Shown here: piece by piece, positions 3,961 to 60,158 of the stretch
Position numbering within the stretch: position 1 is the first letter of the stretch
Layout: every line of letters starts with the position of its first letter
DNA from: Polytrichum commune
Lineage: Eukaryota; Streptophyta; Polytrichopsida; Polytrichales; Polytrichaceae
Reading direction: 5' to 3'
Length of the DNA stretch: 64,000 nucleotides
Assembly: GCA_950295325.1 (NCBI GenBank)
Contig: OX485805.1
Location: 45,346,758 to 45,410,757, forward strand
Notes under the pieces: generated by a model
What the model saw: the letters and a program-made list of their open reading frames with translations, nothing else
Databases searched by the model: none
What the model was told of the DNA's origin: nothing
Position numbers and translations under genes: made by a program

Positions 3961-6935
3961 GAAGAAAAGAAAAGAAAAAATACGCCCGTATCTTAAGTAC
4001 CGGCGTGAATATGAGCCCGTTGGTCTTATGCTGATCACGGTGTCCCGTGATGCAACAAGAGATTTTGTGCCTCCGTTAGGAGGTGGGCTCTTGGTAGGTG
4101 TAAAGTTAGCTTAATATCATTGTGGTGGGGAGACCGGTGATTGTTTGTTATCAAGTTTTCTTTTGTTTAGTATTAAGTAGGTTAGGTATTTAATGGCATT
4201 TTGGTGTAGGTGTTTCATGAGGGTTTTGATGCTAGTTTTAGGGATTTTTAGATTAGTTAGTTTTTCGATAGAGTGTTCGTGTATTGCTCCTCGTACACCT
4301 GCTGTGATGGTTATGAGGGGGTTAGTTTTCCATCCATTCATTTGTATAGCGTTTATTAGTGGGTCGTATTTAGTATGTTTTTGTGCGATGGCTTGTTCTG
4401 GGAACCTATCGTGGCAATATGTGAATTCTATGAATTGGACTGTAGTTGTGGGAGATGGGTCCATGGGTGTTTGTGTATGATTTGGGGCTCCGATTATGCA
4501 TAGGATGTATGGTCTAAGTTTGGCATAACATTGGCAAGGGGCTTGTGGGCATGTACATTTGAGTAACCATTCTGGGATTGTTCGGTCTGGTGGTTGATTA
4601 TTGTTTTTACCAGCGTTGGTTAGTGTAAAGAAGCGAGTATTTTTGTTAGCTTGTAGTGTTTGTTTGATGAGGTGTACCGCTTTATCGTGTCTAGAAATTC
4701 TTAGGCCTTTGAGGTATGGGTTTTCACATGTTGAGAGGAGGTGCGGCCATGTGTCTCTATCATTTTTATAGCATAGTGTGCAGTTGGGGTTTTGGTGTGT
4801 GTGTGGCCAAAAGATGTTTTTTCTATGGTTGCCCATGTATTGGGCGTATCTGAATTTTAGTGTTTGGGATATTTGTGCATCTGTTATTTTTTCATTTTTC
4901 CAAAAGTGGTTGGAGAGTTTGTGGTTTATTTGGTCATTTGAAAGCCATTTGTCAACGTATGGGAATTTGTTTTTGGCTATTGCCGCTTCACGGGTTTCGT
5001 GCTCTTTGGTTATAGTGTTGCGGAGGTTTTGGATGGCCCCGTCGTGTGTGGCGGTTGGGCAACTAGTTAGCCAATATGGTGTGGGGTGTGTTGTGTGTTC
5101 ATGGGGTGTTTTATTTGGTTTGTCTTTAAGGGTCCCTTCATTGGCTAGTGTATCAGCAATTTCATTACCTGTAATTCCTGTGTGTGCACGTACTTTATGT
5201 AAGTGGATTGTGTATGGGGTCCAGTAAATATGTTGTACTATGGCTGCTATGAGTAGTTTGTCTGGGTGATGATGTTGTGATGTTGGGTGTCGAATATGGT
5301 TGTTGATTAAGAATAAACTATTAAGGCTATCCGTGAATATGTGAGTGTCTGTCCGGGTGGTTTGGATGGTTTTTATAGCAATGTGTATTGCGTTAAGCTC
5401 TGCTCTAAGGATGTTTTGGTACCCTGGTAGTCTCTATGATATTTTGGTGTTTTTGTTGGGGCTGTATACTCCGGATCCAGTTGTGTTGCCTTCTATTTGT
5501 CCTTCTGAGTTTTTGGTTGGTGGGATGAATGAACCGTCCGTGTACATGCATTGTTGTGGATGGAATTTAAGTGGATGGATGTGGTAGTATTTTATGGGGA
5601 GAGGTGTTATCGTGTAGTTAGGTATAGTGGGGTTTGTTTTGGGGGCGTTTATCCATGCTTTGGAGAATTTAACCTTGTAGTGGGTTGTTGTGGGGGTAAT
5701 AGGATATGTATCTATGTGCGTTTTTAATGTTCTTTTTAGGATATTTTGTAACTCTTGTGGGGTTTGTAGGTTTATTGGGAGGTGTGTCTGGTTGTGTACG
5801 CATATTATAGATGTGAGTGCCGGTTCTATGTATTGGTAGTATTTGGGCCATTCCGGTGCGGGGTCGTATTGTATGGTATGCGGCGGGATGGTTGCTATTA
5901 TGTGTATGTCAGCTTGCTCTGTGATAGGTAGTTGTTGTGAGGTCCAATCTTTGTAGTTAACTATTAGGATGGTGTAGGTTTGGTTGTCCTCCTTGGCGGC
6001 CATTTTGGCCCAGTGTATAGCTTCCAGGGTAGAGTTATGATCTTTGGGGTGGGCTAATCCTGTTCCTACCCAACGGGAGGACTTCGTATGTCCTACTGAT
6101 CCGAATAGTATGTCTCTAGTATGTGGCGAGTTATATTGTGTGAGTTGAGTGGGACAAGTGAGGGGGGTTGAGTAGTATGCGTGTGTGATCTTAAAGGATT
6201 CTATTAGTAATTTGGTGATGTCCGGGTGTAGGATGTGGTGTAGGTTGGTTGGGCGTATGTTTTTTGGTTTTTTCTTAGGGAGAATGGTTATGTATCTTTG
6301 GATTAGCCAAAGTATTTCGGTTTCGAAGTCTTGTGGTGGGGGTTGTAAGAAGGTGGTTAGGTGTGGGAGACTGTTATGGGAAAATTGGTTCCATAGCCAT
6401 TGTAATCTGTCGGTGTGGAGTGTGGCTATGTAATTCCCATTTTGGTCATATATGTTGGCTGTCGAGTTTTGGATTTGTATGGTTGGTTTGTTGGTATTTA
6501 TGTCTTTGTCGGGATTACATTCTTGTGTGGAAATCTTGAGATTTGTAATATTGAGGGGGGGATGGATGAATTTGTTGTCTTTCGATTGGGAGTAATTGGA
6601 GTAATCTTCATACATTTTTGTGGTTTTGTTTTTTAATATTGTCTTGTGGTATTGTGTTATGAGGAGTAAGTTGTGGTCTACTAGGATGTTGTCCGGGTTT
6701 AGGAGACTTTCCTCTGTGCGCCATTGTTGTGTTGTTTCGTTTGGAGTATGCCATTGGCATAAGTATTGTCTTTTTATGGCAAGTGCACCCCATTTATCTT
6801 TTCTCTTGGTGGTTTTTTTCATTAGTTATGGTGTGGATTGCTCGTCCAAAGGTGGGTTGTGTAGAGGGGGTTGGTTTATGCGTGTTATGGGTGGGGGTGT
6901 GTTGTGGTGGTAAGGTGTGGTTTGTATTGGTTATA
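3961..6935 (-). mobile_element. 5'-truncated non-LTR retrotransposon (LINE-like) insertion
   Basis: This 2975-bp insertion is bounded by a perfect 29-bp duplication and read on the minus strand. Most of it is one long reading frame with RNase H and a C-terminal zinc finger, the order found at the 3' end of LINE ORF2. No reverse-transcriptase catalytic motif is visible, so the 5' part was probably lost, as is common for LINE insertions. The 3' untranslated segment (4116-3961 in sense) holds two short potential stem-loops, cctcc/ggagg and atcacgg/ccgtgat. It ends in a pyrimidine-rich TTTTC-type tail rather than poly(A). The coding strand is strikingly rich in A and C, so the plus strand is G/T-rich throughout, unlike the flanks. 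Confidence 0.85.
4117..6822 (-). pseudogene. retrotransposon ORF2 C-terminal part: MTase-like segment, RNase H, zinc finger; one in-frame stop
   Basis: One frame runs 902 codons from the ATG at 6822 to the TGA at 4117, broken only by a TAG at 5434-5436 (codon 463). Residues about 205-345 resemble the methyltransferase-like segment of some retroelement polyproteins and of PCIF1-type enzymes (FGS..., then a WA helix and a hydrophobic strand), but the NPPF-like catalytic motif reads AHPKD. RNase H follows with all four acidic positions: YTDGS (D429), RAELNAI (E475), FTDSLNS (D498) and GNEIAD. The C-terminal knuckle CTLCYKNDRDTWPHLLSTC is CX2CX9HX4C, followed by a RHDKA motif usual in LINEs. The stop lies between the first two RNase H acids, so the copy is probably dead. 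Just upstream, another frame reads FGRAIHTITNE into the A-run at the ATG, suggesting a frameshift and no true start at 6822. Confidence 0.8.
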
Positions 6936-16859: not shown

Positions 16860-18425
16860 TCACGAGAGTCGGGACAGAGAAGCTAAGTTAGTAGCGGACG
16901 AACCAACGAACGCATATCTCAAATGAGGGGGACAGAAGAGGAGAGGTTCAATGGCCAGCAGCAGAAGCAGCAGCAGCAGCGAAACCCTAGAATTGGCAAT
17001 GCGCGGGGCGCGGAGGGAGGGAATGTGATGCGCAGCCGCTGACCAAGATTGGAGCCGATGAGAAGATTCTTCTGCTATGATGATGGTCACCTCGATCTGA
17101 AATGAGTCTACGGCCTGGAGATCTCACGTAGGAAGTTCCAGTTCCAGTTCGAGGTGGAGTTGGAGTGGAAGAGAAGGACTGGAATCTTTCTTTCTTTCTT
17201 TCTTTTTGGTTTTGGTTTTGGTTTTGGTTCGGTTCGGTTTGGCTCGGCAGATCGTTGGTTGTGGTTGTGTGGCGCCGGTCGATCCCATGGTGCGAGCAGC
17301 GAGCAGTCCCTCCGGGGAAGCGAAGAAGAAGCTGCTGCGGCGCGTTTGCCTATTGTAGGGCAAGGTGTTGGCGGCACTCAAGGTTTTATTGTCATCACAG
17401 CTTCTCTGTGCTCTCTCTCTTCAGGTCACTTGTTACTTTTCGTGCTTCGTATCGTTCCAAGTTCTGGTGCAAAGCATCATCCCTGGATTCTACCTTACCA
17501 CAAGGTTGAAGGAACGGTAACGGTAACGGGAATCAGAGACGGAAACCGAAACCGAAACTGAAACGGGAGAATTAGCTGCATGCACAATTGCTGCAGTTGG
17601 TTGGTTGTTGGACACTGTTTTCGTCTATTTTGAACACGGCGTGCTTGGCGGAGGAGGAGCAGGAGCAGCAGGAGGTTCGTGTCTCCTGCGAAGTGTCCTG
17701 TCAGTTTCCTGGAATCCGGATGAACAGGTCAGGAACAATTGTTTGCGTAGGAGTTTTCAGACAGGGTGACAGAGTTCGCAGAGTGTGGCTTGTAAGGTAG
17801 CATCAGGCTTCGAGGTTATATTCTCCGACACTTGTTCTGCTGCTTCTTGCTGCCAGTTGTTGTCAGTTCGGCTTCTAGTTCTCAGATAACATCTCATCTC
17901 CTCTTTTTCTCTTCCTAGCTACATAGCAGATGTGAGTGTGACGGCTTGCTGGAACTCTCTTTCTCGCTACTTTGTAGTCGGGGATCCTATCTCAGTCCTC
18001 CTCAATCTTAGAATGGAGGGCTCAGGCTCAGGAGGAGCAAGTGATCTGTATGTGTTTGTGAGTCAAATGAGGTACTTGTATTTCCTAGGTAGCCTGCGCT
18101 CGGTGCGATCTCCACCCTCTTACGGCTGAGTATTGGAGTGAATCTCTTGCCTTATATTCTCCACTTGGAAAGGGAGGGGTTTGAGGATGCCACACACGTG
18201 AAGGATTTAGGAAGAGGTAGGGATTCCCGGATGTGTTTGGGCATCATTGAGCTCGTGGTTTTGGACATCAAGGGGGAATTGTGTGTGGAGCTTTTCGACC
18301 GGGTCATACTGAGGGTTCGTTTCTTGTGGATAAAGCTCATACCAGCCGTTAGGGCGATAGTATCGTTAAGAAGGGATAAGGATCACGCAGCTGCAGCAGC
18401 AGAAGAAATAAGTGCCTACCATACA
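16860..18425 (+). other. probable KANADI leader / promoter-proximal region
   Basis: GC content rises compared with the flanks and low-complexity tracts are frequent: a cagcag run near 16962-16980, TTTC then GGTTTT repeats at 17186-17230, and 'aacggtaacggtaacgg' near 17512. An open frame continuous with the KANADI exon reaches back to a stop at 18090 but has no convincing conserved residues before 18426. I therefore treat it as 5' untranslated sequence. Transcription start and any leader introns cannot be placed by eye. Confidence 0.45.
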
Positions 18426-21397
18426 ATGCAAGAGCCTTATATAGACAAATATATGAGTGTTTCAAGCTCTGCCAACAGACCATCTGGCCCTGACTTGGCG
18501 CTTCAGATCAGCCCACCCAATATCTGCAGCAATGACACTACCCACCACCAAAAGTCCTCTGATGAGGTTCATCTGAATGAAGAAGACTTGCCCGAGCATG
18601 TTCACGGCTTCGATCTCTGGAAACAGCCTCCCAAATCTGTCAGCTGCGGCGGCGGTAGTGACATTGAGAGCAATGTCTCCAGCTCTGCAAGCGATACGTG
18701 CCCAGGTGGCAGCGGTGGCTATGACAATTTGGGAGCTTCAACAGTCCTCTGCCTGGCTAATCCAACCACTGATTTGCAGTTTCTTAAGGGAGCACCACGA
18801 AGCACCATGAAGAATAATCGGGGCAATGAGGAAACCATCATAGGAGGAAGTAGGGATGGAATGCAGGAAGACAGACAGCAGGGTGGTAGCTCTGCAGAGT
18901 ATCTCTGTAGTAGTCGTGCGCATCCTTTCTTGCTGGATATGGACAGCAGATCGGAAGTAAAGCACAGTGACCCTGATAGGACATCTCTGCAGAATGAAAG
19001 TGAAGAATATCCAAGGTTGTACAACAGTAGTGTGTACACAAGTGAATTTCAGGACGACTTTTCTCGGAGGCCAGTGGATAGAAGTATGGAGTACTTGCAC
19101 TTGCAGCAGGGGCAATCACCACCAAATCCACATTTTGGCCCGAGCCAGTCAGCTATACATGAACTGTCGCTGGGACGGTTACATGAGCCAAGTCTCCATC
19201 GAGAGGCCTCCTCCAGTGCCTCTCAATGCAGACTTGGCCTGTCAAGATTACAGAGTTACAGCAGCCTTGGTATAGATGCTGGAACTTTGTTGCCTAATCA
19301 CTATGGTTACCAAGACTACAGTTCGCAGGTTGGAAAGATGGCAAGCCTGCATGGTTCATCACTGACGGGAAGTTTGTCAAGCCTCTCAGCAAACTTCAAT
19401 TCAGAACAAGAGGGTCCGTATAACATGGCACGATTTGCTCGATTTCCACCAAAGTCACCATCGAAGCGGTCTATACGAGCTCCGAGGATGAGGTGGACCA
19501 GTACACTGCATGCCCACTTTGTGCAGGCGGTGGAGCTACTTGGTGGCCATGAAAGTAAGGAAGTCTGTGGGCTGCTTAGGAATTTTGTGAGTTCTGGTAT
19601 TTGAACTAGTCAAATGACGAACTGGTCTTAATGTTGCTGTTAAAGTTCAAAGATTGGTTAGAGAGGATGTCGCCTAATTTCTGGTACTCTGGTACTCGCT
19701 CCTACAAATTCCTACATATTGTTGAATTGGGCTCTCAATTCAACCTAATTTTATGTCAATGTGAAAATCACATTCTCTTGAAACCTGTGATGGAAGTATT
19801 CATGGGATCTAATTCATATTTATCACAATTTTTTTCACATGATTCGTGAGAGTAGTATCAAATTTGTCACACGGATGTGTGCTTACCTGTACTTGACTTC
19901 CAATTAGGGCTCCGCTTAGTATCCAGTAAGTTCTATTGGTTGAACAAATCCTTCGACAAATTTATGCACTCTTAGATCATGGTGACCTATAGAACATTGA
20001 GTCACGTGTGGATTTTTTGCAGGAGCGACACCAAAATCTGTTCTGGAACTGATGAACGTGAAGGACCTCACTTTAGCACATGTCAAGAGTCATTTACAGG
20101 TAAGAAACTCTGGTCTATGGAGACTACTTTAGGTTCATGGACCACAGCAAATCTGAAAAGCAATGTCAGCTTTCTAAACATCATGAAACAGGATTTAGAG
20201 TTGTACAAGAGCAGTCATTGCCTGCTGTAATACACAGTAAAGGAACTGGTAGACTTCTGACTTCTGACTTCTGATATAGTAGCACAAGGATGAAATGAGT
20301 TGGTCCTTCTGATGATGGAGGATTTTGGATAACGACTTTGGCGTCACTCCCTTACCTCAGTATTGTGATCTAATGAATGTGGGCCCTAGTAAACATTCAA
20401 TTTAAAAGGTCCTCCTGGTACATATACCTTGTCTTCGTTGTGGTGTCTATGAGTCTTAGAGTTTCAGGTTGTTTTATATGTTGAAATATCTGGTTTTTTT
20501 TCTTATGCTTTGCAGTACATTTTGAACTTGTAAAAAATCATGTGTACTTGAACTTGTATCCGATGTTGTACATTTGAGATTTGCAGTTCTTTTTCCTAAT
20601 GGTGAAGTTCCTCTGCTGGTCAGTGTTAGTTCAAGAAGGTTCTCTTATTATTATTACAAATTTATTATGTGGTGTGCCCCAGTAGTACAAAGTTGTGTTC
20701 CATATTTCATGTCATTGTCTTGTAACAGTGATATGTAGGATTGTGAAAAAAAATTCAAGTAGTGCTCAGCTGATGCTGATTCAAGTATTGATATACTGGG
20801 TTATTGTGTATGCAGATGTATCGGACTGTGAAGACTTCTGATAAGTCAGGTCCTTCTTCAGGTTAGACTGTGAATCATTGTTGTGGGTCAACATCCTTTT
20901 ACTATCCTCCTCTATTGTAACCTCGATACATATCTTCAAACACTAGATTGATGATGGAAACTTATGTTTTGCAAACCAAAGACTTTATTCAATGTGAATT
21001 TAGAGATGGTAGTTGAGTGTCCAGAACAGAACCATGCAGTTTGCTTGTGTTTAAGGCATGAAACTGAGGCCCATTGCTCAAAACAATTCATGATGTATTA
21101 ATTGCAGGACCAGCAGAGCTATCTCAGACAAGTTCCATCGAAGTGAGGATGCCAGAGGCATTGCTTATGGGTCACACCATCTCAAGGTCAAGCAGCACTC
21201 TTGACAACTCACATTCTCCTGAAAACTTGGAGTCAAGCCATACTTACCGTACTCTTGGAGACACTCAAGGTGCGTCAGCAACAATGCAGAGTAAAGTCTG
21301 GCTCCAGGAAATGCCTCCAAATTATGGGCCAACCCAAAGAGGTATGAACCAAAGAAGCAGTTCACGTGAGACTAATGTTATCCAGACTTGTAGTTGA
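18426..21397 (+). CDS. KAN: KANADI-type GARP (MYB-like) transcription factor
   Basis: KANADI proteins bind DNA in the nucleus through a GARP domain and act in organ polarity, usually as repressors. Exons: 18426-19554, 20023-20099, 20816-20861 and 21108-21397, giving 513 codons with frame kept at each GT-AG junction. The N-terminus has the family motif DLALQISPPN just after the chosen ATG. GARP lies at about residues 352-412: PRMRWTSTLHAHFVQAVELL, then ATPKSVLELMNVKDLTLAHV, ending in KSHLQMYRTVKTSDK. This is nearly identical to angiosperm KANADI and distinct from other GARP types. The C-terminus is uncertain: the frame reads to a TGA at 21397, but a donor (gtatga) at 21342 could join an exon near 22305, where SKSSLE recalls the C-terminal SK.LPNLEFTLGRP motif in a frame the splice does not simply keep. 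An in-frame ATG near 18231 is an alternative start. Confidence 0.9.
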
Positions 21398-50825: not shown

Positions 50826-53800
50826 CTATTGTGGTGCAAGAAAGGTATTCGAAGTCGTAAACAACTGATCAATAAGGGGAAGGGGTCGCCTTTTCCCAGG
50901 GCCCATCCCAACTCTCTGTGAACTTGCCACAGGTGGAGGACTCGTCAAAATTTGAAGCATACTTTTCAAGGCCGTCTGCAATATGAGACAACAAAGAAAT
51001 AATGTTTAATTCTGCAAAGTTGTTTCGAAAGACAGCCAGATCAGAACATAGGTTAAGTCAGATTACCAAAACAAACATGCGATTGAAATCCTATGCCTTC
51101 CGAGATAAACAACGATACTATTTGAGAGCATGGCAATCATTAAGTTAATTGTCCTCAAAAAGAACAAGGTTAACTTCTAGAGGAATGGATTTGCATGATA
51201 CATAACACATTACCCGTGAAGAAAATAGATGATGCATACCTGAACATCATGCATTTTGAATGAACCGGCCCCAATATTGTTGCCTGGGCGAAGTGGGTCA
51301 TCAATTGTCAAAGCTGCTGAACGTAACTGCTTATCATGGTAAAATAACCCTCCACTACCACCATTGCCCTGTCATGATACAAAAGTACAAAATACCAAAG
51401 CCTCCATAGATTAGTCTGCTTCCTGAATTATCTACAAAGCTTTGCATGCATGACCTGCAACTTCAAACTAGGAACGTCTAGACTGATATGTGCAAATTAT
51501 CCTGATACCCAAGCTAATTTTCCAACAATCTACAATATTTTTATTATTTATTAGCACATTATTAAAATACAGGAACTTTTTTATTGTTGTGGTTGCTACA
51601 CAGATGAATGAAAAACGTTTTTGTGATCTGATTTTGACCCACACTAATTTGCATGGTAAAAAGGTAACCTATGTGTGAAGGCAACCTAGTTGCACATATC
51701 GGTGTAAGTTAAAACCTAAGAAGAACCATGGACAGTTTTTGTGACTAATTTCAGAAATAGTGGAAAGCATACTTTTGTAACAAGGCGCACTTTGGTGAAG
51801 TCAATCTCCACCCCAAAGATGTGCAAGAAGTCGATTAACAAGATCCCAAGATTTGGAGAGGATACTGTATGCATTGATTTCTGCAACTGTTCCACAATGC
51901 CACCTGTCCAATAAACACGACGATCCACATTACTAGTCTCCACACAATAACATATTCGATCAGCCGCAACCATTTTATGAAAAGATAAAGCTTTAATACT
52001 ACAGCACACAGAGAACTTCCAACTTCTGATTTTGGAAGGTAAAAGCTTAGTTTTTCTGCATGTAGAACAACTACCCTTCATGCCTGTCAGTTTTGTACAT
52101 ATTAAATTATACCCATGAGTGCCTATATTCTTAAGTGCAACATGGCATGTTGCCATTGGCTGATCGTGGCTATAGATACTATGTGGCAATTGGTAACTTA
52201 GTATTGACTGTTCAAAACAAAGGTCTAGCTTATGGACATGAACACCTGTACCACCTAAATCCCATTGCCAAGAGATGACTAAAATCAAGTACTTACCGTT
52301 TGCCAAGGATTCTTTAGTAGGACTACTGAATGTTGATGTCCTATTTGATGCTGTTGTGGAGGTTGCAGAGGATGTAGGATCTTCAATATGAGCATCCAAG
52401 GTACCGCCAGGTGTCACAGAAGGTACTACTACAACCCCATCAGGAGATAATTGATCTGCAGAACTTGAGTTGGGAGCATCACCACTCCCTGCATACAAAA
52501 CCTGGGGTCTCACCCCCCCGGGCATACCATACAAAATCGATGTCCTCTGCCATCACCAAAAGAAAATGCATTTAGAATTTAGAGTTATCCTTTAATTCAA
52601 TGGAGGGTTTTTGTCGTGAATTGGTCCCCTATGGTCTCCCATTGGTTGTTTGAATACAAGATCAACAGTTTCTTACTACTTGTGCATGCTTGGAGGTAGT
52701 GTTTGAATTTGAACAAAGGGCAACCTAATTTGGTTCATTAAGGGTCAAACTCAATTTAGCACCTCTTGTAATGCCAAAATGAGTTTGACCCGATATAGAA
52801 TGTTCTTCATTCAAACCTCCACGATACCACCAAGGATGCACCACAAATTTACCAAACATGGAAGGTGTTGTATGCAAAACAACCAACTCCCAACCAGAAA
52901 TATAAAGGATAACTCCATCGAAGATAAAAAAAAATTAGACTAGCATTTGACATTTGACATTTGACATAGCTCTGGACTTGTCAGGGGACAAAAGAAATCT
53001 GCTATATGTAAGTCCACCAACAACCAAAAAGAGGTTTCTTCCATGATATTCATTTGAAAGAAAAGACAAAACCCAGTTAACCTCAAGAGGGTAACAAATG
53101 CTCACCTCAAGATAGAAGACTACCATAATCGTGAGTGAAAAGGACCCGAGTCCTCCTGTGTAGACATCTTTAAGTCCTTTGGCTTGCAAGTACGATTTCA
53201 GAAGTAACACCTGGTACAACCACCAAAAGTAATCTCTATATATCATTTTGTGTGATAATTGGGAGTCTCTCTGAAGAACAAAGCAAAAGCTCACCAAGGG
53301 AGTTGGTAGGCATATAAGCCAAGAAAACAGAGTTTAACTGTACAAATATATCACATACTATAGAGTTACTACAATCACCCACCACAATAAGATGGCAATA
53401 AAAATCTCTGAACATTTTGAAATTTTTATCTATTGCCCTGCATACCTGAAAACAAGTCAGGGATTGTAAGACAGGGCTCCGTCACATACCAAGGGTGCCA
53501 AAGCTGGCTGTTGATGTAACTTCTCAATCACATACTCTCTTGTTGCAGTACCATTATGGAGTATACTTGCAGATTTATTGACATTTGGCATCCCAACAAC
53601 CTGATTGTTGTTGTTGTTGCTTCCAGTAACTCCATTCCCCTGGACTCCACCAGTAGCTTCAACATTCTTCACCCTCTTACCACCAATTGTAATATCAATT
53701 TTCACAACAGATGCTTGCGGAGCAGATGCTCCATTCACTGTGGGCTTGCATTGCAACTTGATCACTGGCATGGTAGCTGACTCAATGGTGTTGATATCCA

Positions 53801-56800
53801 CACACCAAGGATAAACTTGCAGAGATGATCCCAACAAGCGGATTAAGGGTGCAAGTGCTCGGGAACCATACAGGGGGACTGCATCTGCTGTTCCTGGTGG
53901 TGGTGGGGCATCAACAACAACCACGTCCACGTCACTATGCGCGAGGGATAGCCCAGTCGCATAGGATCCAAATACCTGGAATTACAGTCCAACATGGTAC
54001 TGAGTAACATGAAAAGAGTGAGAAATCCCTAGGCTGTGTCCATACACTCAAGGGTGACATTGCAGAACCTTCACTGAGTTACACTACACTGTACTCAGAG
54101 TGGGTTGACATTAGTGTCCATGACCAAAGAAACTCCAAAATCAAGCAATCCTATTGGTCATGAGCAAAATTTTGGACCAAGGAGTTTACACGAGGGTCTG
54201 GGTCCAGGAGTATGAAAAAATGCAGTGGCACTAATGTGGTATCACTTTACCACTAAATCTCTTTGGTCTCCATCAAAGAGAATACTCCTAGTTCAAGAAA
54301 CCAATATTCAAGCTAATGTCCAATTTTGGGTCCGCAAGTAGAGTTCATGGTATTTTGGACCCCAAGTTTATTGGACCCAGACCCTAATGTAAATTCGCCC
54401 TTACACTCTAAACACATTCTGAACCATTGTGTAGAAATCTTGTGAGCCACTTGTGTAGAGTCGGTGCAGAAAGTAAAAGAGACAGCTCATTTGGACAGTA
54501 GTTCTGGTGAGCTCTACGTTTCACTGTTTCCCATAACATTTTGGGACACATGCAGATCAGCAAGGGCTAAGTATACTTCAGGATCAAACATTAAATGCAC
54601 AATAATTGATCATACCTCAACATCTGCACACGGCCAAAGTATCTTCACAGCATTTCGTACACATTCAACAGCAGCCTCTGCATAAATTCGTGCCTCGGGT
54701 GACAGGCTTGCAGTTCGTGCAAATTCCAGTATCTCCATATGTAGCTCCTCTGCATTCGCTAAGAGTTGTGCAGGCACCAGTGGGAAAAGACCATCTCCAG
54801 CCAGTGGAGGAGTAGACTGCAAGGTTATGGTTGTAGGTGAAGGTGGAACCCCACAAATGCCCTGGACCACTCCATTTTGCATTACAAGATCCCCTTCCAC
54901 CGGACTACGAGTGACGTAATGATAAGCCATTCCATGAGGTCCAACATCTACAGCAACAAAACAAGTGAGTTCATTTCTTTGTACCAACAATATTACTACT
55001 ATTCACAAGGGCAACTTATGCCGCACACTCATTTGTCCATATAGTCGTGCAAAAGCAGTGTCTCAGAGCAGGGTAAGAGAAAAAGAAATAGAACAGAGAA
55101 ATAAGACTTATGGAGTGTACAAGAATAATTTGGACTGATACTTCATATATAGATATGTATATATATAGATACGAATGACTCTACAGTGTTATCCAATTCA
55201 GGAATGAGTCTTAACACCTAAAAGCTTTTGCAGCCCCATTTGGGCCTGTTCTACATAAGGTATTTTGAAAATTGTATAGATTGTGATGTGATTAATTGGT
55301 AGATAGTGATGGCTTATTGTCTTAAGGGTTATTCTTCTTGATACCTACACAAACTACATGAAAAGGGTTTGATGGAGTTTTCATATCACCCAGCATTTAA
55401 TATAGAATACGCAATTGGTCTGAACATGCTAAAAGCGTTTTGGGTTAAGTGCAAGAGAAACCAGCACCTGATCGGACTCCCCGGTCATGATATTGTGCAG
55501 TAGGAGGTGCAGGTGACAAGGTTGAGTAGTGGAAATTCTGCTGAGGCTGTAACGGGGGGGTTGGTAATCTCAAAGGTATCAAGCTCTGCAGGGGGACTTG
55601 GTCAAGGGAGGACGTCCTCGCTAACTGTGTCAATTCGTCTCGTTCTTTTGGAAGGTCATATTGCTGGCCCCGTCTTCGATCGTGTACAGATCTATTTGTT
55701 TTTGATAATGGAACTTGGAAATGGGCTGAAGCTTTAAAGGGCTGTGCTGGAAATGAGGGATAAACAACAGCAGGTGAAGCAGCTTCAAATTGCTCTCCTG
55801 CTTGCCATAAAGTTTGGTGCCCATCAATTCCAGGAGAAGAAGTCTGTCTTGCATTTCTCCCTGCACTCATTGTTGAGTCAGAAACAGAACTCTTTTGCAG
55901 CCCGCCCTCAGAGGAACTGTTTACGGGATCAGGGCAATGGTCTAAAGGTAATACAGTACTTGACATTATTCGAATATTTGGTCCCCAACTAAACACCTGT
56001 GGATGTGAAAGCACAGCAGCAGCAGCATCAACTCCTTGCCATGAGTGGCTCTTTTGTGCAATTTCTGTAGCAGTATACTCTGTGCTATCTGCAGATAGCT
56101 TCCCTCCTGATGATCTTGCTCGATAATTCGAACTGGCCCTATCAACAACTCTTTCGCCTTCTATAGGCCTTGAGACATTCTTTAATAATTTTTGTACACT
56201 GGCACCTGCATACTCCACCGCTGCTGCCGATGTCCCAAAAGAATTAGAGCCTTCACTCATCCTTCCAACACATTCACCTTCATTCTGAAGAACCCTCTCC
56301 ACAGCCCCTGCAGCTGTAGATGTGGCACCTAAACCTGTCACTTCCTTATCACTTCCTAATTTTCTATTATCGACTTTCTTCCCATCTCCATTTCCACAAG
56401 CTGTTGTTGGTGTTCCTTCGCTCCCACCAACAACATTATGAAGCTTTGGAGCACCTGATCCTTCATTGCAAACAAGCCTCCTATTTCCACCTGACTCTAC
56501 TACAGCTTTACTACCAGCACCATTTATACTGGAAGGAACTACATTGACAGAATTGTCGCCGATTTCAACACCCCCACCAAAATTGAGGCCATCACCACCT
56601 ATGCTCAAATCAGTAAACATCCCTACCATACCAGCTTTCAAGGCAGCACTGTAAGAAGCAAACCCAGGGCGGCTAGGGGACTGAGACCCTGCTTGTGACT
56701 CTCCTGCTTGGCTGTTGCTCCTCACTCCATTTAATTCTGTATGAAGTTCATCTGAATCTGCCCTTGAGTCTCTTTCACTGCTATCCTCACATGAAACATT

Positions 56801-59800
56801 TGTGTGGTGCTCGCTACCCTTCAGATCTACTACTACTAATGATGCATCCTGCAGTTCAGGAAGCTCATTTGGCACACTTATGATGCCATTAGCTTCAACT
56901 TGGATCACTCCATTTTTCTTCACTCCCTTCTTGGACCTATTATCATCATCATGAGTCACACAACTAGAGGTTGAAACATCAGCACTTGAAGACGAAGATG
57001 CAACTGACAAGTCAGGATCGGACCGCCATTTCTGTGCAATATCAGCTCGAGACTCCCTCCCTCGTCCAAAGTCACCAGTGGTTGTGGGAACACCAGATTG
57101 GGATGCATTTCCATTGTTATTATTTGTTGAGCCATTTGATGACCCTGCCCTCCTTCTTCCTGCTGGTGGATTTGGAGAATTTGATCGTTTTGTAGGAGGA
57201 CGATAAACACGAGTCACTTTGCTCTTACTTTTAACCCTTTCCCATTCACCTCCCATATCATCCTGCCACTTTTCCATTTTCTGGATGCTGGAAGTTCCAA
57301 AGAGCTTCAACAAATCATTTGCCTGGACAGAGTACATTACCACAAATTGCAATAAATCTCTACAGGAGAAGTGTAATAGAGGAAAATGCATGAAGACAGT
57401 ATGTAACCAGTTTCACTTTTATATGATAACCACTTGCAATCTACTCTGCCTTCATGTTCATTACATTTGGTGAACATCCCTTTTGAGCAATGATGGCCCA
57501 GTAGGACGGAAGTTCCTTGCAGCAACCTAATAGTTCCCCACACCTGTTATTACCATGATTGGATGAAAAAAAGGAGGGCCATAACCTAGTGACTTAAAGT
57601 CACGCAGCACACATTTCATCCCTGTAGACCTATAAGGGTCCAGAAAAGTACTGTACAAATGTATGGAGTGGCAGAAATCAAGAACCTCAAGACAGCCAAA
57701 TTATATCCAAAAAATGGAAAGCATACCTCTTTCACTGAGAGCTCTAGTCTAAACTTGGGACCATCATAGTGATACAGGAAGGGCCGAAACTGTTCTTCTT
57801 CTAAGGGTGGTCTCTCCTCACGCCAGCGCACCCTAACCTGCACCAAAAGAAATATTGTATGTTAATATGCAAAGAGAAATGATACATATTCATATCCTAA
57901 GTACTTGAAGTAATTGCCAAAGTCCAAGTAAACTACCACACCAGGTTCGTTACAATCCTAACCTTGTGATTGATATTCAGAGTACCCTGTCATCACCTCC
58001 ATCTTGCACAACAAGAATGATATGATCACTCTCCACACTCCCTCCCTTCCAGAGAGAAAGTTGAGAAGTCATGATCTGCCACAGGAAGCCAATTGACCTC
58101 ATACTACATACCACTAGTCTCTGACCTTACCATGAAGTTGCAATAACTTGGTCACAAATTGATCAAATGTGAGGGATGTTCTATGAAGAGAAAAATGTTC
58201 AAACCCACGAGGTGATGTAATTAATGAATAGAGATCTCCCATGCAAGTTTGTGCAGACATAGGCAATTATTCTCACACTGGATATAAGTAGCAGAGGTGA
58301 CCCTGTTTTCACTTGTACACCAAAAGGGCTAACAAGAGAGCATTCCAATAGAAAATGACCCAATTTGCACAATATAGTCGACCTTTTATCTTGCTTAAGG
58401 AGATTAAGAAATATCATACAGCACATAAGGAGCAAAGATTTTCAATGAATAAATGTTCAAAAAAAAGTACAGATCTGATCCCAACCTGCGCAGGAAATCT
58501 GGACACTGGTCGACCAGCTTTTCTTGTTTCTTTGGTATCCCAAGCCTCAGGCTCAATGTTCAGGCCACCATCACTGGACGCCTGCCGTGAGAAAATACAT
58601 CAGTTAGTGCATGGAAGAGCCTCATTAAATTCTAAACCCTATGGTCAATTCAACAACATAAGCAAACACAGATCTTGCCACATGCAAAATCAGAACAGGC
58701 CCAGACAAAATCTTCCACCACAACATTCATAAAAAATATGGGTTTAACCATACTATTTCTGCATGCATAATTATGATTTCAAGCCCATTATGCCCTTGCC
58801 TAGCCATAGAAAACAAAGAAAATGTACCTCAAAGACACCATGCAAACACCTTGTGGAATAATTGTAGAGAAAAAGAGGGAGCCCTGGCTGGATAGCCTCC
58901 ACAGAATCTTGATAGCGCTGAGGGAGTCCTGTCATCGAGTAAAAGGGATCAACAAACCAAATAAGTCATCATATGTGAAAGGCAAGGGGCTAACCAGATA
59001 ATTAACTCGCAAGCTCAACCCACAAACCTTCAAGAGCTTCGTGGCTTGACAGTAGGCCACCAGTCTGTCCAGAACTCCTTGAAGCGCATAGAATGGAGAT
59101 TTTCGGAGTTAGGTTCATAAAGCTCCTATGGGAGATGAATTTCAGAGGATTTTCAGAGGAAGGTAGAAAGGGACAATGTAGAACACCAATTCACGACTGG
59201 CAGGAATAACACAATTTTATCATCCGAGACCTCACATCTCTTCAGGCAAGTTTCCAAATTCTGTAACACTAAATTGTCCCCGGAACATTAAAATCTGGAA
59301 AACAAATTTCAGGCATTATCTTTGCAACACACGGTAAAAGATACATTCAGGTGACCATACAGCTGCGGCTAAAAATATTTGCCACTAATGACCATCGTTC
59401 TCACATTGCAACCGCCAGCTATACGATTACAACATCACTACCATAAGGAAAGGAGCAGACCTCTACAAACGCTTTCCAAACTCCCATCTTTAAGCCTAGA
59501 GAGGTCTTCGAAGAACAGTTACGTCGTGCTGATCAACTTCTATGCACTCAACCCCCGCCCCCCCTTTTCTTTGCGACAACCGGCAAGGGCACCAGGATTT
59601 CAACCACCTAACATCATGTTAAGACGACCAGTTTTGATGGAAACTCCTAAATATTGAAAGTGAACCTCTTTCGTCGATGAAACATGCCTCTCCAATGGTA
59701 GGCAGTGCCTTCCTTCCTTCCATCCTTAAAAGCCTCAAATGATGAAGCAGCAGCAAGGTAAAGCACCAACTCATGGGTTAGCCGCCAACCGATGGAAAAA

Positions 59801-60158
59801 GAGAAAACCTAAATCCAAGGCGGCTCATCAAGGATTCGGGATAATGAAAATTGGGAGCCAAAACCAATGTGGCTGCTCAAATTAACCCATGCAGAGAGAG
59901 GGTCAGGATGAGCCATGAAGAATTATTTTATTGTTTACCAAATAACTGACGGTCGAGGTCTTCCGCCATGGTGTCATTGTTGCAAACGAAGATGAAGCCA
60001 CCGAGGGGCTCAATCACACCTAACCCCCCGCCACCTCCACCGCCGCCTACGCCTCCACTTCCTTCCAAAATCCCTCCCCCTCCTGCCTTCTTCATTTCCA
60101 TCGGGCTGTTGACGACCTCCAACCGATGCGCCACATTGCGATGCTTCGGGGCCACCAT
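50826..60158 (-). CDS. DCD-domain protein fused to a TRF4/5-like non-canonical nucleotidyltransferase (poly(A)/U polymerase)
   Basis: Exons (high to low): 60158-59939, 58928-58828, 58581-58486, 57837-57727, 57322-55468, 54947-54616, 53975-53490, 53210-53106, 52546-52297, 51903-51773, 51368-51240, 50975-50826. They total 3966 nt (1321 aa), with every junction in frame. Residues about 52-180 form a full DCD domain as in plant N-rich proteins: LGGFIFVCNNDTM, PGLPLFLYNYSTR, FPAQVRVRW, HHYDGPKFRLELS-type YHYDGPKFRLELSVKEA. A long low-complexity S/G/N-rich linker (about 181-794) follows. The catalytic part has VFGSYATGL with SDVDV (D920, D922), third acid KIDI (D999), the helix LKSYLQAKGLKDVYTGGLGS, NLGILLIDFLHIFGVEIDF, and the PAP-associated segment LTIDDPLRPGNNIG. 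The enzyme probably adds A or U to RNA 3' ends. About 85 mostly S/T/G/P residues (1103-1185) interrupt the catalytic half. The start ATG is the first after an in-frame TAG. Confidence 0.88.
52618..52918 (+). mobile_element. intronic MITE-like repeat, copy 2 (DCD-nucleotidyltransferase intron 8)
   Basis: This is a homologue of 40260-40520. Its ends are also imperfect inverted repeats: 'attggttgtttgaataca' at the left, and 'tgtatgcaaaacaaccaa' reversed at the right. The element lies in the intron between the exons ending at 53106 and starting at 52546. Confidence 0.7.
54171..54400. repeat. inverted repeat in DCD-nucleotidyltransferase intron 6
   Basis: 'agggtctgggtcca' (about 54193-54206) and 'tggacccagaccct' (about 54372-54385) are exact inverted copies inside longer imperfect arms. 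Smaller inverted pairs lie between them (gtggta/taccac and ctctttg/caaagag). It is probably a small foldback element. Confidence 0.6.

Follow-up and report, generated by a model that had tools for sequence, protein, structure and literature searches.

Gene model and the fifth intron

The window (i.e. the whole 64-kb stretch of Polytrichum commune DNA that was analysed) carries on its minus strand, from 60158 to 50826, a gene of 12 exons whose introns are all of the GT-AG type. Splicing produced 1321 codons and a stop codon with no internal stop, reproducing the single in-frame protein of the original prediction, which had left the strand unstated. Each of the 12 exons had a higher G+C content than its flanking introns. 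The encoded protein consists of a DCD domain (aa 53-184), a linker of ~680 aa and a TRF4/5-type nucleotidyltransferase core, in that order.

In the splice model, exon 1 (59939-60158) contributes the start codon, a Gly-rich leader and the first part of the DCD (aa 1-73). The splice model and Pfam place the continuation of this domain in exon 2 (58828-58928; GLPQRY...HGVFE), exon 3 (58486-58581; ASSDGG...FPAQ) and exon 4 (57727-57837; VRVRW...LSVKE). Its end (ANDLLKLF) lies in exon 5 (55468-57322), which then runs stop-free into the long linker. Exon 5 was free of stops in the claimed frame and contained 35 and 58 stops in the other two frames; its codon use, scored against the other exons, averaged +0.149 bits per codon in frame as compared to -0.040 and -0.234 in the alternatives. 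The composition of the long linker shows few order-promoting residues. Short basic runs occur in exon 5 at aa 221-222, 232-234 and 725-727, and a further run (i.e. KRR, aa 1300-1302) lies near the C-terminus; such runs would be in keeping with a nuclear location. A pattern search of the 1321-aa protein found no PAM2-like, RGG or LC8 motif and no match to the arch motif of the exosome (LFx[VI]D).

The joint that decides between one gene and two is intron 5 (54948-55467; 520 bases), which separates exons 5 and 6. Its donor (CAG/GTGCTG) was the lowest-scoring of the 11 donors of the gene (1.8 bits, leave-one-out), several nearby GT sites scored higher, and use of an alternative donor 6 bases further on would likewise leave the frame intact. 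An ATTAAA is present at +67 of the intron (0.32 expected on the minus strand), as are four overlapping TATATA sites at +301, +303, +305 and +317 (0.31 expected); among 6348 segments of 520 bases taken from the window, 137 contained four or more TATATA. The weak donor, the ATTAAA and the TATATA cluster make it possible that two neighbours are present, namely a DCD protein that terminates seven codons beyond the proposed donor, within intron 5, and a TRF4/5-type enzyme of its own with a start at about Met801 in exon 6. A search of the genome (407.8 Mb, 64 contigs) returned DCD matches at eight loci and nucleotidyltransferase palm matches at six, and bears on this proposal in both directions. The two domains coincided only at the present gene and were apart at all other loci found, the next DCD-palm distance on one contig being 6.9 Mb, and the closest DCD gene (i.e. 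L003) has a frame that stops 14 codons past its fourth DCD intron. Random placement of eight and six loci would, however, give a same-strand pair within 10 kb with a probability of ~0.001 (by our own formula), an argument that a long-kept neighbour pair escapes. Exon 5 also stays open for ~600 codons from the DCD up to the donor, it reaches that donor in the phase that exon 6 requires, the in-frame alternative donor offers a second way of joining the two exons, and two genes would be separated by no more than 520 bases. Two separate genes are thus considered unlikely, and the locus appears to be a fusion gene encoding a single protein, known here from genomic sequence, that joins a DCD to an RNA-tailing enzyme.

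Other coding features were observed elsewhere in the window. Two adjacent long frames lie on the minus strand at 4120-6825: the first (4120-5433) contains an RNase H match (PF00075, 2e-10) and the second (5437-6825) a PCIF1_WW match below threshold (24.5 versus 31.1 bits). Together they are probably one retroelement. Passages of the DCD survey PMC7641849 describe PCIF1_WW as really being a CAPAM-like methyltransferase. On the plus strand, an open frame of 503 codons (stop to stop) at 18093-19601 had no Pfam match at 0.01.

The DCD domain and its possible ligand

The name DCD dates from 2005, when Tenhaken et al. gave it to a domain of plant proteins involved in development and cell death. Pfam matched the whole of the DCD profile (PF10539, positions 1-126 of 126) to aa 53-184 with an E-value of 2.1e-39 and a score of 134.7 bits (cut-off 27.8), and the protein has all four of the DCD motifs listed by Tenhaken et al., with FGLP at aa 73, LFL at aa 92, PAQV at aa 137 and PLxE at aa 150. 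The presence of a complete N-terminal DCD is therefore upheld. The domain shares 74% of its residues with the DCD of L003 (C1:51824 kb) and 48-59% with four others, all partial, in the same genome. All four DCD introns are common to L003 at the same codons and phases, with shared borders after LFG (phase 1), VFE (phase 0), PAQ (phase 0) and SV(K/P)E (phase 0). L003 is called NRP-like from its DCD and the C-terminal place of that domain. In NRP proteins (i.e. DCD subgroup I) the DCD is at the C-terminus; here it occupies aa 53-184 of 1321, so that the fusion protein falls outside that subgroup.

Several side observations were made on the DCD genes of this genome. The region L003:1201-2400 contains the C-terminal DCD and, in the intron before the last exon, a trinucleotide repeat (ACT/CTA/TAC by translations). 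Two DCD genes lying 20 Mb apart on one contig (C5:26194500-26198500 and C5:46160000-46164000) have near-identical DCD exons and are perhaps a recent duplication. For relatives of the DCD outside eukaryotes, three viral and 15 prokaryotic pattern matches were obtained, none of which passed tblastn.

A DCD profile was built from six DCDs of the same genome (two near-complete and four partial, from six of the eight loci) and compared to PDB. The two best matches were the UPF0310 proteins PH1033 (2.6e-5) and MJECL36 (0.0092), both of which we take to be EVE proteins. Methylated RNA-binding protein 1 of yeast, presumably a YTH protein and m6A reader, was matched weakly (0.072) and ranked below the unrelated MlnE (0.014). 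Sequence-profile kinship to the EVE/YTH (PUA-like) readers of modified bases was therefore found via PH1033 and MJECL36. With the single DCD as query against Pfam, neither the EVE nor the YTH family was returned up to an E-value of 10, the DCD being the only match. In the weak yeast YTH match, Trp121 (exon 3), at a W/F position of the DCD, aligned to a Trp of the YTH domain and is a possible cage residue, to be treated as a lead.

In the passages of PMC7641849 drawn on here, the DCD is placed among PUA/EVE-like binders of modified bases and is reported from modification-dependent restriction and RNA-processing fusions. The same passages describe DCDs alongside YTH, KH and zinc-finger domains in heterokont orthologues of CPSF30 (i.e. 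RNA 3'-end factors) and predict modified-RNA binding. Tenhaken et al. (2005), in contrast, favoured protein-protein contact. The label of a 'stress-responsive module' given in the original prediction undersells the DCD: a modified-nucleic-acid reader is the better guess because the DCD profile finds EVE-type proteins and, weakly, a YTH protein, in agreement with PMC7641849. Judged by these similarities, the DCD probably reads chemically marked RNA. The fusion could also be real and the enzyme A-adding with the DCD serving as a protein-protein or localisation module (e.g. for stress or P-body recruitment) and not as a base reader. The interaction proposed by Tenhaken et al. favours such a role, as do the paucity of order-promoting residues in the linker, which resembles condensate proteins, and the distance of the EVE/YTH link, which is missing from the Pfam scan. 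The UPF0310 (EVE-type) identity of both top PDB matches, followed by the m6A reader, speaks against it together with the restriction and RNA-processing fusions of PMC7641849, making a purely protein-binding DCD a somewhat unlikely alternative to a reader of modified bases.

The nucleotidyltransferase core and its paralogues

The enzyme core begins in exon 6 (54616-54947) according to the splice model, Pfam and the PDB match. Exon 7 (53490-53975) encodes GSYATG, D920, D922, D999 and an Asn-rich insertion, and exon 8 (53106-53210) the central helix YTGGLGSFSLTIMVVFYLE. A low-complexity insertion within the core occupies exon 9 (52297-52546); it is the second of two insertions, the first following D999. 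The PAP-associated region, including NLGILLIDFLHIFG, lies in exon 10 (51773-51903), the nucleotide recognition motif IDDPLRPGNNIG with Asn1259 in exon 11 (51240-51368), and the C-terminal helix, with the KRR run and the stop codon, in exon 12 (50826-50975).

Both palm profiles exceeded their Pfam cut-offs, the MTPAP-like central palm (PF22600) at aa 864-1001 with 39.7 bits against 27 (E 6.3e-10) and NTP_transf_2 (PF01909) at aa 891-930 with 29.7 bits against 21 (E 8.7e-7). PAP_assoc was matched at aa 1203-1255 with 13.4 bits against a cut-off of 22.6 (E 0.096). The best PDB match was yeast Trf4 (3nyb, 4.6e-20), followed by Cid1 (1.8e-4), and three stretches aligned to Trf4 with the NLG and DP..NN motifs included. 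The GS motif (GS908), D920, D922, D999 and the PAP-associated NN (1259-1260) were all found where they had been predicted, and the palm scores and the proximity to Trf4 bear out the assignment to the TRF4/5 type. D999, which MAFFT did not align with the paralogues, was assigned on the basis of the PF22600 profile, within whose match it lies, and of its KIDIT motif. For exon 7, 118 viral pattern matches were obtained and none passed tblastn.

In the alignment with structure 4fhx, the counterpart of Asn1259 is Cid1 residue 336, a His in unmutated Cid1. Passages of PMC9465592 identify 4fhx as the Cid1 H336N mutant and report that H336N prefers ATP. His at this position is taken here to mark uridylyl transferases of the Cid1/URT1 type; the URT1-like paralogue L011 has it (EDPFEVTHD, by eye), whereas the fusion protein has Asn, and addition of A is therefore expected. 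A uridylyl or mixed-nucleotide transferase, or a dead enzyme, would be compatible with the divergence of the core (29.6% identity to the MEE44-like and 35.7% to the TRL-like paralogue), its two low-complexity insertions and the PAP_assoc score under the Pfam cut-off, and the grouping of a plant tailing-enzyme review, in the part drawn on here, puts URT1, NTP9 and TRL in one clade. The complete set of GS, three Asp and NN residues and the Asn at the specificity position make these options very unlikely.

The six palm loci are the fusion gene, L012 and what, judged by their motifs, look like one gene each of MEE44-, TRL-, URT1- and HESO1-like type. Of these, L010 (C6:41184 kb) is presumably the MEE44-like gene and L014 (C2:29070 kb) presumably the TRL-like, TRF4/5-like gene. 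Over 208 common columns, identity is 36.5% between the fusion core and the TRL-like core, 33.7% between the fusion core and the MEE44-like core, and 38.5% between the MEE44-like and TRL-like cores. The intron after MVVFYLE/MLLTHLQ (i.e. the 3' border of exon 8) is common to the fusion gene and L014 in place and phase, and the intron before FGS is two codons off the TRL-like position. No introns in common with the MEE44-like core were seen by eye.

The possibility that the gene is simply the P. commune MEE44 (NTP9) with a long N-terminus was also considered. The DP..NN..G..F motif is shared with the MEE44-like core, as is the 29.6% identity given above, and MEE44-type enzymes had been named for comparison in the original prediction. 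That core nevertheless sits in a separate gene, L010, on whose contig no DCD match was listed, and the common columns place the fusion core no nearer to the MEE44-like than to the TRL-like core. As the fusion gene was not the closest MEE44-like gene, this identity is hardly credible and was rejected. From the shared intron and the identities to both cores, the fusion enzyme looks like a third TRF4/5-type lineage besides TRL and MEE44.

No second copy of the fusion, of the linker and its exon 5, or of the enzyme was present among the best candidates scored (9, 16 and 1), a weak indication given that the enzyme query missed the TRL-like gene returned by the palm search. A genome search with PF03828, which is insensitive to exon-split genes, returned one locus only.

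Proposed function and comparison with known systems

The explanation that we favour, held tentatively and at somewhat less than an even chance, is of one gene for a protein in which a flexible linker of ~680 aa connects a DCD to a non-canonical poly(A) polymerase of the TRF4/5 type; through this protein, marked RNA would be tailed and passed to the exosome. The open 12-exon frame and the coding of exon 5 in the claimed frame only are counted among its supports. The DCD, with a putative EVE/YTH-like fold, would bind a modified base in RNA, m5C and m6A being the obvious candidates, and the linker would allow the catalytic domain to reach the 3' end of the RNA so held. The enzyme would extend this end with A, or with a mixture of A and some G, and the exosome would then take over the tailed RNA. 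TRL offers a parallel, since according to passages of PMC13030794 it adenylates pre-rRNA for exosome decay. Such a protein would amount to a TRAMP-like polymerase with a built-in substrate reader and no separate RNA-binding partner. As the enzyme acts on RNA 3' ends, its joining to a DCD in nature strongly hints that the DCD sees RNA. The most far-reaching reading, in which a single polypeptide both reads an RNA modification and adds poly(A)-type tails, so that mark-bearing RNA is tailed at its 3' end by the protein that reads the mark, is somewhat unlikely.

A DCD-nucleotidyltransferase fusion was not found among the matches listed from the openly licensed literature (titles, abstract openings and main-text passages). 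The term DCD is absent from the sections drawn on of a 2026 review of plant tailing enzymes and of the soybean survey PMC10816777, in Table 1 of which the other domain is PAP_assoc for 2/16 proteins and Unknown for 14/16. The word 'nucleotidyltransferase' does not occur in the main text of the DCD survey PMC7641849. The architecture may already sit in protein databases. The fusion would allow the RNA recognition of the DCD to be probed on a single purified protein. Should the DCD read a modified base, a direct link would run from an RNA mark to RNA tailing; plant DCD domains would thereby gain a molecular function and the epitranscriptome would be tied directly to RNA 3'-end turnover.

Among known systems, the TRF4/5 enzymes (yeast Trf4, Arabidopsis TRL/NTP10 and human TENT4) share with the fusion protein the GS and DxD palm, third Asp, NLG and DP..NN; Trf4 is its best PDB match and the TRL-like paralogue has one intron in common with it. 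The fusion protein differs from them in its N-terminal DCD and ~680-aa linker and in the insertions after D999 and between the central helix and NLG, and a separate TRL-like gene is present in the same genome. MEE44/NTP9 (AT4G00060; soybean GmNTP3, 1547 aa) is likewise a long protein, with little conservation over most of its length and a nucleotidyltransferase towards the C-terminal end, as described in the part of PMC10816777 drawn on. No DCD is mentioned for it in those parts of the plant review and the soybean survey, and P. commune has the separate MEE44-like gene. NRP-type DCD proteins (Tenhaken subgroup I) resemble the fusion protein through the 74% identity and four of four introns shared with L003, but L003 ends soon after its DCD whereas the fusion protein combines an N-terminal DCD with an enzyme. 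The EVE/YTH readers are linked to it by the similarity of the DCD profile; this kinship is distant, with Trp121 as a lead to a possible cage residue. In the heterokont CPSF30 orthologues with a Zn-finger-YTH-DCD-KH arrangement, the passages of PMC7641849 name no polymerase, and these proteins have a YTH partner and occur outside plants, but there, as in the fusion protein, a DCD is built into an RNA 3'-end factor.
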